Shown piece after piece: positions 59,450 to 64,000 of a stretch of 64,000 nt of DNA. Numbering within the stretch: position 1 is the stretch's first letter; every line of letters begins with the position of its first letter. Both the position numbers and the translations under genes were made by a program. Origin of the DNA: Anaerolineae bacterium (lineage in GTDB: Bacteria > Chloroflexota > Anaerolineae > Promineifilales > Promineifilaceae); assembly GCA_023954475.1 (NCBI GenBank), contig JAMLHW010000001.1, positions 186,001 through 250,000 of the forward strand, read 5' to 3'. The notes under the pieces were generated by a model. That model worked only from the letters and a program-made list of their open reading frames with translations, searched no databases and was not told the DNA's origin.

Positions 59450-61072
59450 ATGACCCGACTGAGCAGCCAAATCAATGTCAATTCGGCCGAATTCAAGGCC
59501 AACTACGACTATAATAAACAACTCGCCGATCGCTTACATGAGCGCCAACAACACGCCGCTTCCGAACGTCCGCAGCGCACCATCGACCGGCAGCGACAAC
59601 GCGACAAATTGCTCGTCCGTGAACGCATCGGCATGATTCTGGACGACGAAAGCCCCTTTCTAGAACTGTCGCCGTTAGCTGCGTGGGAGATGTACGACGG
59701 CGAAGCGCCCAGTGCCGGTATCGTGACGGGCATCGGCCGAATCCAGGGTTTGGAATGCATGATCATCGCCAACGACCCCACGGTCAAAGGCGGCACGTAC
59801 TTCCCTGAAACCGTCAAGAAACACGTTCGCGCCCAGACCATCGCTGAAGAAAACCATCTGCCCTGCATCTATCTGGTCGATTCCGGCGGTGCTTTTCTGC
59901 ATCTGCAAGCGGATGTGTTTCCGGACCGGGAGCATTTCGGCCGAATCTTTTACAACATGGCGCGCATGAGCGGCAAAGGCATTACGCAAATTGCGGCGGT
60001 GCTCGGCTCGTGTACAGCCGGTGGCGCTTACATTCCGGCAATGGCTGACGAAACGATCATTGTCAAAGGGAATGGCACGATCTTTCTGGCGGGCCCGCCG
60101 CTGGTTGAAGCTGCGACGGGTGCTGTGGTTTCGGCCGAAGAATTAGGCGGTGCCGACGTGCATACGCGCCTCAGCGGCGTCGCCGACCATTTTGCCGTCG
60201 ATGAGCCAGCCGCACTGGAGCACGTGCGCGAAATTGCCGGCCATCTCAACCGCCGCAAACACAACCCGCTGGTCATGCAACAACCGGAAGATCCCGCCTA
60301 CGATCCCGACGAATTGTATGGCGTCATTCCGGCCGATGCGCGTCACAGTTACGATGTCCGCGAAATCATCGCCCGTCTTGTCGACGGCTCGCGTTTCAGC
60401 GAATTCAAGGCGCGTTATGGGACAACTATCGTCTGTGGTTTTGCCCATCTGATGGGGATGCCGGTTGGTATCGTCGCCAACAATGGTTTGTTGTTCAGCG
60501 AATCGTCCGTCAAGGCGACCCACTTTATCCAGTTGTGCGGTCAGCGAGGCACGCCACTGCTCTTCATGCAGAACATTGCCGGTTTTATGGTCGGCAAGGA
60601 TTACGAGAACGGCGGTATCGCTAAAGACGGCGCCAAGATGGTGATGGCGGTGAGCAATGTCAATGTGCCGCGCATCACCTTGCTGCACGGCGTCAGCCAC
60701 GGTGCGGGTAATTACGGCATGAGTGGCCGCGCCTACGATCCGCGTTTCTTGTTTTCGTGGCCGAATAGCCGCATCAGTGTGATGAGCGGCGAGGCGGCGG
60801 CGGGAACGCTGTGGACAGTGGGACAAAAGCGTGTACTGGCAAAATTGGGCGACGATGCGACGCCGGGGCAAATTGCTTCGGCCGAAGCGCAGTTCAAGCA
60901 GCCGGTGCTCGACAAATATGCCCACGAATCCGATCCGTATTATGCGACGGCACGGTTGTGGGATGATGGCATTCTCGATCCAGTGCAGACGCGGGTGGCG
61001 CTGGCGCTGGCGTTTGCGACGACGCTCAATGCGCCGTTCCCCACCGACCGCTTCGGCACTTTCCGCATGTAG
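59450..61072 (+). CDS. acyl-CoA carboxylase carboxyltransferase beta subunit (methylcrotonyl-CoA type)
   Basis: 540 aa. MCC beta-type motifs: [93 protein letters not shown] and [20 protein letters not shown]. It transfers the carboxyl group from biotin to the acyl-CoA, in leucine degradation if the substrate is methylcrotonyl-CoA. The biotin carboxylase subunit is not in the window, so the substrate is not confirmed; geranyl-CoA or another acyl-CoA is possible. Normal length. Confidence 0.92.
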
Positions 61073-62265: not shown

Positions 62266-63561
62266 CTAATCATACAAGAAGCGCAGCGCGTCTCCAATTT
62301 GAGCCTGCCAGAATCCCCAACTGTGACCTGCTGGAAGCTCGGCGTACTCAAAATCGTACCCTTTTTCGCGGAGGAAAGCGGCCAGACGGCGATTGAGTTC
62401 AAGGAGATCGTTTTCGGCCGAATTCCCTCCCACCGCCGTTTCATAGCGTCCCACCGCCAAATGCAGCTTCAGCGGCAGCGCCTCCGCCAAAGATAACTCA
62501 GTGATGATTGCGCCGTTATTCAAGCCAAACATGCCCGACTGCGTCGCCACGAGACCAAACAAATCGGGCCGACTTGTCGCCAGATGCAGCGCCGCCAATC
62601 CGCCTTCGGCCGAACCAAGCGTGCCCGTGCGTGCCGGGTCGGGATCGGTGTCGAAGCGATTGCGCACCGCCGGCAGCAATTCTTCGGCGATAAAATTGGT
62701 GTATGCGTCGTCGCGGTCATATTCATTCGGCCGATCGATAGGCGGCACAAAGACGACCAGCAGAGGCGGTATGTCGCGTTCCGCAATCAGCCGGTCGAGA
62801 ATGGCGGGCATATCGACGATGTTCATGTAATCGGTGCCATCGTGCACATAGAGCGACGGCAGTTTGGCACCTACCAGTTGTCCCGCCGGTTCATAAACAA
62901 AATAGGTGCGTGTTCGGCCGAGATACGCACTGTCGATAATGAAATCGCTGATTGTACCGGCCGGATAAACGGCATCAGTGGGAGCGAGTTCGGGCGGCGC
63001 GGCGTAATCGGGCATCTTCAACTCAGAGTGCAAGCCGTCACTGCCCAGAATCGTATGGGGATTTAGCGGATCGAGTTGCGCCACGCCATCGACAATGAGG
63101 CGATAATCGAGGCGGGCGTCAGACTCGTATTCGGCCGCCAGCCACCACAAACTGCTGCCGACCAACCGGGTAAAGTCGTCCGTTTCGCCCGGCGACCAAT
63201 TATTCATGTCGCCGGTGAGCTGCACCCGGTTGGCGTCGCCGCGATAGAGAAACACAGCTTGTTTGCCGGCTGTCAGCGGCGCTTCCGGCAGCGTCGTCAC
63301 GTAGTTGTTGACCAGAAACGGACGATCGGCGATGCGAGCTGCTTCGGCCGATTGCAAAAAGGTAGTAAACGCTGCCAACGCATTGTTCGTATCCACAGTA
63401 CCGGTACCGGCAATGGCTGCTTCTGTCACAAGTGGCGTCACACCCAGATCGATGTCGTCAACCGGTTGGCAGGCAGACACAAGGCATACGGTAAGCACCA
63501 GCAGCACCAACATCGCCCAAATGCGAACCAGTCTTGTCTTTCTGTTCAACATGCCCCGCAT
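62266..63561 (-). CDS. lipoprotein with starch-binding-like domain and enterochelin-esterase-like domain lacking the nucleophile Ser
   Basis: 431 aa from ATG 63561 (ATG 63552 or TTG 63588 are possible). Lipobox CLVSAC. Residues about 65-160 form a CBM48/E-set-like domain (QAVFLYRGDANRVQLTGDMN). Residues about 200-431 are a PF00756-type esterase: SLYVHDGTDYMNIVDMPAIL, VVFVPPIDRPNEY, then LGSAEGGLAALHLATSRPDL and AGHSWGFW. In the family the elbow reads G-x-S-x-G-G; here it is G-S-A-E-G-G, so the nucleophile position is Ala. These codons are a TTCGGCCGAA palindrome (62605-62614). The enzyme is probably inactive or altered. Confidence 0.85.
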   Translation of the reverse strand: MRGMLNRKTRLVRIWAMLVLLVLTVCLVSACQPVDDIDLGVTPLVTEAAIAGTGTVDTNNALAAFTTFLQSAEAARIADRPFLVNNYVTTLPEAPLTAGKQAVFLYRGDANRVQLTGDMNNWSPGETDDFTRLVGSSLWWLAAEYESDARLDYRLIVDGVAQLDPLNPHTILGSDGLHSELKMPDYAAPPELAPTDAVYPAGTISDFIIDSAYLGRTRTYFVYEPAGQLVGAKLPSLYVHDGTDYMNIVDMPAILDRLIAERDIPPLLVVFVPPIDRPNEYDRDDAYTNFIAEELLPAVRNRFDTDPDPARTGTLGSAEGGLAALHLATSRPDLFGLVATQSGMFGLNNGAIITELSLAEALPLKLHLAVGRYETAVGGNSAENDLLELNRRLAAFLREKGYDFEYAELPAGHSWGFWQAQIGDALRFLYD

Positions 63562-63608
63562 TGTACTGAAACCATGCGCCGTCTCCAATTGTGCTACAAT
63601 CGGTTCTC

Positions 63609-64000
63609 ATGAAGGTGTATTTGGACAGCATTGGCTGTCGCCTCAACCAGAGCGAAATCGAAACGATGGCCCGGCAATTGTTGGCGGCCGGCCATGAGAT
63701 CGTGGCGGATGCGGATTCGGCCGATACCGTGATCCTCAACACCTGTGCCGTCACCCGCGAAGCGACACGCGACACACGCAACAAGACGCGCCGTTTTCAC
63801 CGTGCCAATCCCAACGCCGCAATCATTCTCACCGGCTGTCACGCCACACTCGCACCTGACAACCTGATCGCCCTAGACGGCGTCAAAGCGATTGTACCCA
63901 ACAACGAGAAGCAGCAGCTTGTCCAACGCATCGATCCGCGTGCCGTGCTCTCGCTGCCCGTCTACGACCGCGAACCGATCATCCGTGAATTTATGGCAGG
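63609..64000 (+). CDS. start of a tRNA methylthiotransferase (MtaB/MiaB family), cut by window end
   Basis: The first 130 codons are present from ATG 63609. KVYLDSIGCRLNQSEIETMA, ILNTCAVTREATRDTRNKTR and IILTGCHATLAP supply the three N-terminal cysteines of the UPF0004 domain that hold the auxiliary 4Fe-4S cluster. The 'GCRLNQ' version and TGC motif favour the MtaB (t6A-modifying) branch. The radical-SAM and TRAM domains would lie beyond the window. TACAAT with TG extension (63595-63600) lies eight bases before the ATG. Confidence 0.88.
   Translation, partial: MKVYLDSIGCRLNQSEIETMARQLLAAGHEIVADADSADTVILNTCAVTREATRDTRNKTRRFHRANPNAAIILTGCHATLAPDNLIALDGVKAIVPNNEKQQLVQRIDPRAVLSLPVYDREPIIREFMA

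Follow-up and report, generated by a model that had tools for sequence, protein, structure and literature searches.

A lipoprotein of the PF00756 esterase family, encoded in the window (the whole 64,000-nucleotide stretch of DNA that was analysed), carries alanine at the tip of its nucleophile elbow, and the codons of this elbow coincide with one copy of a palindrome that is found in great excess throughout the genome. Among relatives of the protein the nucleophile was lost repeatedly and independently. The site had probably ceased to matter before the palindrome settled there. This explanation as a whole, a pseudoenzyme with a HIP-like octamer on its freed elbow, is favoured with reasonable but limited confidence.

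The esterase-like lipoprotein and its nucleophile elbow

The gene was assigned to 62266-63552 on the minus strand by its open reading frame and a Pfam match. The longest form of the reading frame (62266-63588) begins at a TTG codon at 63588; the likely start is at 63552, and residues were numbered over 428 aa, counted from Met13 of the longest form. The PF00756 (Putative esterase) assignment of a sequence-only reading was borne out, with E 1.4e-28 and 100.8 bits (cut-off 22) over profile positions 1-250 of 251. The best NCBIfam model was enterochelin esterase (NF007758, equivalog), matched with 89.2 bits, which is below its curated cut-off of 222. A signal peptide (63469-63552, minus strand) with the lipobox V-S-A-C was recognised by reading the sequence, and Cys28 is likely lipidated; the AlphaFold model has a helix at residues 5-24 and low confidence at 23-50. 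Model strands and the Fes alignment delimit an N-terminal beta domain (residues 93-179; 63016-63276, minus strand), like the N-terminal domain of Fes and the CBM48-like domain of CE1 esterases. The alpha/beta-hydrolase domain (residues 198-428; 62269-62961, minus strand) was located by Pfam, model and fold matches. The divergent neighbour at 63609-63998 (plus strand) is the start of a gene for an MtaB-like methylthiotransferase. Four neighbours of the esterase gene were checked, and none was recognised as a gene for carbohydrate degradation.

Sequence, alignment and model agree on the nucleophile elbow G-S-A-E-G-G (residues 313-318; 62599-62616, minus strand). Its codons on the minus strand are GG[T TCG GCC GAA] GGC GGA, where brackets mark the palindrome TTCGGCCGAA at 62605-62614; the octamer TCGGCCGA within it occupies 62606-62613. 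As the sequence-only reading had claimed, the palindrome encodes S-A-E exactly at this place. The elbow was aligned by HMMER with G-Q-S-F-G-G of the solved homologue Fes (2b20), so the Ser-to-Ala change sits at the nucleophile column. The codon GCC of Ala315 (62608-62610, minus strand) stands at the position that is Ser in 80 of 87 aligned elbows. The claim that the nucleophile position had become Ala held in the 2b20 alignment, in the orthologue alignment and at the model turn at 315.

The window protein and 16 relatives served as input for an AlphaFold2 model (mean pLDDT 87.8, pTM 0.83). It has a strand at residues 309-314 and a helix at 316-327; residue 315 is therefore the predicted turn and Ser314 the last strand residue. 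In the model, Ala315 is at the elbow tip. Ser314 was considered as an alternative nucleophile and ruled out, being placed in the strand and not at the tip; the arrangement named in advance as speaking against the Ala assignment, with the preceding Ser at the tip, was not what structure prediction gave. With Ala at the modelled tip, the protein almost certainly cannot act as a serine hydrolase. Among the features of an active serine esterase, the elbow Ser of G-x-S-x-G-G is absent. Present are His410 of G-H-S-W-G (62323-62325, minus strand), the catalytic His conserved with relatives, and Glu371 of G-R-Y-E-T (62440-62442, minus strand), the likely catalytic acid, which is invariant in the 11-sequence alignment and was given this role by its position after strand 362-368.

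For model residues 80-428, the best fold match among the PDB matches listed was Fes 3mga (Z 37.0, rmsd 2.5, 336 residues aligned, 24% identity), and CBM48-CE1 esterases followed. The window protein shares with Fes (2b20, 3c87, 3mga) the two-domain layout, the fold, the G-x-x-x-G-G elbow and the positions of His and acid. It differs in having Ala in G-S-A-E-G-G where Fes has Ser in G-Q-S-F-G-G, in its lipoprotein signal and in scoring under the NCBIfam Fes cut-off. The combination of an N-terminal beta domain with a CE1 hydrolase is shared with the CBM48-CE1 feruloyl and acetyl-xylan esterases (7b5v, 6rzo, 6ne9).

Exchange of Ser for Ala in esterases normally serves to trap ligand. According to their PDB titles, 1gkl is an S954A mutant with ferulate, 7xrv an S150A mutant with methylferulate, and 6gi1 is PfeE S157A in the presence of enterobactin. 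The Ala of the window protein corresponds to the engineered inactive form of the CE1 mutants 1gkl and 7xrv, but is natural. By analogy with these ligand-containing structures, ligand binding without turnover is plausible for the window protein. On this view the protein is anchored by lipid, has the two-domain alpha/beta-hydrolase build of the Fes/CE1 type and, with its catalytic Ser gone, most likely binds without hydrolysing (a pseudoenzyme). It retains the fold, the His, the acid and the pocket motifs, the pocket being judged from sequence conservation only.

Loss of the nucleophile among relatives

Close orthologues (L002-L012; 39-48% identity) were found in 11 genomes of the same family. 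A fragment of the MtaB gene also lies upstream of the esterase in L081 (= L005), where it is divergent as in the window, and in L082 (= L006), which supports the orthology of these two; it lies farther off in L091 (= L009). The elbow is GASMGG in L002, L003, L006, L007 and L009, GASLGG in L008 and L010, GSSLGG in L004, GSALGG in L005, GSDLGG in L011 and GQGSGG in L012. Ser is kept in eight of the 11, which sets aside the case, foreseen by the sequence-only reading, of orthologues that all carry Ala without the palindrome. The octamer is absent from the elbows of all 11. The nucleophile was lost without the palindrome in L005 (Ala), L011 (Asp) and L012 (Gly), so the palindrome is not needed for the loss; L010, from the palindrome-rich genome G007, keeps Ser and has its four octamers elsewhere in the gene. 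One of two possibilities offered earlier was inactivation by spread of the palindrome; this comparison does not support a need for the palindrome. A different change was seen in L004 (genome G044), where the elbow Ser is kept, the catalytic His410 is replaced by Gln (GQSLGL) and both active-site Trp are lost.

For a wider scan, one genome per species was used and 80 loci were obtained, eleven of which repeat species; with duplicates removed, the comparison covered 87 aligned elbows. His loss is under-counted here because the search pattern contained the catalytic His. A tree of the 87 sequences was calculated by a quick method with SH-aLRT support only, and label changes of the nucleophile state were counted. 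The state changes at least 7 times. Losses amount to 4 of 14 sequences in the Chloroflexota-dominated clade vs 3 of 73 outside it (Fisher p 0.012, rows treated as independent). The window protein groups with L008 and L010 (support only 85), and L005 with L004 (99). The orthologous group in these Chloroflexota has dropped the nucleophile repeatedly, and with such repeated loss the elbow codons would be free to change.

Of 57 columns that do not vary among Ser-bearing relatives, 5-6 are altered in the non-Ser proteins (window protein, L005, L011 and L012). This is near the leave-one-out range of the Ser-bearing relatives (0-9.5%) and argues for continued constraint on the remainder of the protein. 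In the window protein 5 of the 57 are altered, S315A among them; the others are mild (T>S, G>S, L>M, Y>F). The Fes-like lipoprotein family would have given up catalysis repeatedly while fold and pocket were kept, as far as conserved residues reveal the pocket.

Residue 316 is Glu in the window protein and in none of the 86 relatives. Other elbows have F, Y, L, M, N, A, S or D there, mostly hydrophobic or aromatic residues, and the other nucleophile-less relatives have L, S or Y.

Asp was observed at the nucleophile position of two PF00756-type relatives, L011 (genome G047; GSDLGG) and L100 (GADLAA). Asp is the nucleophile of dehalogenase-like alpha/beta hydrolases, and the chemistry of the family may therefore vary.

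A HIP-like octamer across the genome and its relatives

The decamer TTCGGCCGAA occurs 52 times in the window (0.10 expected) and 3,215 times in the genome, vs 17 for the reversed control. The excess belongs properly to the octamer TCGGCCGA, flanked by A/T at either end. In 864 kb of the source genome (G000), 1,321 copies were counted (1,529 per Mb). A or T flanks both ends of 88% of them, and the octamer accounts for 81% of all CGGCCG. The total for G000 is 7,668 copies in 5.12 Mb (~1,500 per Mb) vs 125 for the reversed control. This is 24.6-fold above an order-2 Markov expectation, which the octamer itself inflates. One-off variants are rarer than expected (O/E 0.3-0.6); the outer position deviates in 188 cases vs 89, 56 and 58 for inner ones, a weak bias, the outer variants also being the most expected. 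Density hardly differs between coding (1,517 per Mb) and remaining sequence (1,651 per Mb), and no regular spacing was found (near random, CV 1.01).

Counted by the octamer, the esterase gene holds five copies; counted by TTCGGCCGAA, two. The second decamer (62413-62422), also noticed in the sequence-only reading, was found in the same gene; its octamer (62414-62421) encodes S-A-E (residues 378-380) in a variable loop. The other octamers encode D-R-P-N (273-276) at 62727-62734, L-G-R (211-213) at 62914-62921 and S-A-E (68-70), at a variable place, at 63344-63351. Insertion of the palindrome at the elbow was ruled out, since the elbow aligns with relatives free of gaps.

For comparison of proteins, octamers of G000 were set against homologues from 1.2 Mb of G032, and frame 0 was taken from reciprocal best pairs. 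The octamer was read as S-A-E/D in 221 cases, x-G-R in 107 and x-R-P-x in 72. Fully covered Ser/Ala codons in frame 0 are identical in 34%, where 47% is expected from these residues at other places (p 2e-7); the octamer therefore prefers variable protein columns. In conserved surroundings, octamers differ at fewer residues (1.35 of 3 vs 2.28).

Among 300 other genomes sampled from the phylum (G007 not among them), the next count was far lower, 655 in 6.2 Mb. The octamer is shared with genus g3 and weakly with g22; by their record titles, the relatives are Chloroflexota / Ardenticatenaceae. Counts within the family are 9,414 in G007 (about 1,200 per Mb), 1,326 in G008, 771-2,070 in genus g22 and 646 in G032, where the octamer is at expectation in 1.2 Mb (64% GC). 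Density was observed to be high in G000 and G007 and intermediate in G008 and g22, the genomes concerned being G000, G007, G008 and G047-G051. The top octamer of G007 is identical, with the same A/T flanks. In orthologous genes of G000 and G007 (mean protein identity 44%), 16 of 103 aligned octamers occupy matching positions, where by our own estimate density predicts a fraction of one; octamer sites therefore persist. The elbow site is not common to L010 of G007.

HIP1 of cyanobacteria is GCGATCGC; alternate HIPs also occur, and density is generally 1000-2000 per Mb (Elhai 2015, PMC4390886). The class comprises GC-rich palindromes whose density, from several hundred to about 2,500 per Mb, greatly exceeds expectation, with one-base deviations biased to the first and last base and a sequence-specific methyltransferase in the genome (PMC4390886). 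In density and over-representation TCGGCCGA belongs with this class. It is likewise a GC-rich 8-bp palindrome in coding and non-coding DNA; the skew of its deviations to outer bases is weak, as given above. It is not HIP1 proper, having A/T flanks and occurring in Chloroflexota, in contrast to GCGATCGC in cyanobacteria. Neither a HIP in Chloroflexota nor the decamer TTCGGCCGAA was found in the open-licence literature. HIP1 has so far been a puzzle of cyanobacteria; here a different octamer in a separate phylum equals it in density, sharpness and deep conservation of position. As relatives have high, middle and low copy numbers, the proposed causes (methylation-directed repair, selection, drive) become comparable, and the esterase shows the reach of such a motif into proteins.

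PF00145 and PF01555 searches gave one C5 methyltransferase (PF00145) and several N4/N6 ones in G000. By BLAST of G000 against G007/g22 methyltransferases only distant C5 matches were obtained (about 24-31% identity), and none was specifically common to G000 and G007. From these searches no enzyme could be named as the cognate methyltransferase. The sole C5 enzyme of G000 (PF00145; L043:4569-9128, G000:C20) looks less like an orphan than like a member of a possible defence operon: after it come a protein that has two GHKL-ATPase domains and one that resembles response regulators.

Origin of the S-A-E elbow

Few positions of an enzyme normally tolerate change as poorly as the elbow nucleophile. 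An octamer at such a position argues that constraint had relaxed there, and Glu316, unlike the residues of relatives, argues for a subsequent rewriting of the site by the motif. A HIP1-like process would create and keep TCGGCCGA, about one per 650 bp, where proteins tolerate it, and at the freed elbow one copy would have taken hold, fixing S-A-E there. We infer relaxation first, together with a lack of hydrolase activity and retained ligand binding. By our own rough estimate, thousands of frame-0 sites make one match to a catalytic residue unsurprising by number alone. The second possibility of the sequence-only reading, a change tolerated in a binding pseudoenzyme, fits better than inactivation by the palindrome; it needs amending at residue 316, since Glu there is unique among 87 elbows and palindrome formation probably rewrote at least this residue.

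Glu316 also counts against relaxation, as residue 316 did not become Glu in L005, L011 and L012, and active rewriting would account for it. The palindrome drive might have inactivated a working enzyme, with Ser to Ala and Leu/Met to Glu arising together and being fixed as the enzyme was dispensable. S-A-E is the exact frame-0 reading of the palindrome, octamer codons diverge from homologues more strongly than these residues do at other places, and one-off intermediates show no enrichment, as might be expected of an octamer made in few steps. As Ser is kept by the nearest tree neighbours L008 and L010 (support only 85), the loss is young enough to have come at the same time as gain of the palindrome. 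However, the clade contains three further cases of nucleophile loss without the palindrome, octamers favour variable columns, and the orthologue in palindrome-rich G007 keeps Ser with its octamers elsewhere. Inactivation by the drive is judged unlikely, though a serious contender, and the palindrome is less likely as cause of the Ser loss than tolerance at a relaxed site. That formation of TCGGCCGA itself overcame protein selection and made a working esterase a pseudoenzyme is doubtful; if true, not even the catalytic centre of an enzyme is safe from being overwritten by a genome-wide palindrome drive.

Continued enzyme activity, by another residue or a His-activated water in place of Ser or by different chemistry in the same pocket, would suit the retained His, acid and surrounding Trp/Gly and the dehalogenase-like nucleophile type of the Asp elbows in L011 and L100. 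It is improbable given an Ala that offers no nucleophile, a Ser314 in the strand and not in the turn, and the Ser-to-Ala mutants of related esterases solved with ligand (6gi1 in the presence of enterobactin). An ordinary change or a miscalled base at the elbow is very improbable indeed: the data are from a single draft genome in 26 contigs, but the window lies within a 739,965-base contig, and the elbow site is a perfect copy of a motif found 7,668 times, which a base error would not make.

Elsewhere in the window, a palindrome copy at 60130-60139 in a carboxyltransferase gene encodes S-A-E of V-V-S-A-E-E-L-G-G and seems to fit normal protein sequence.
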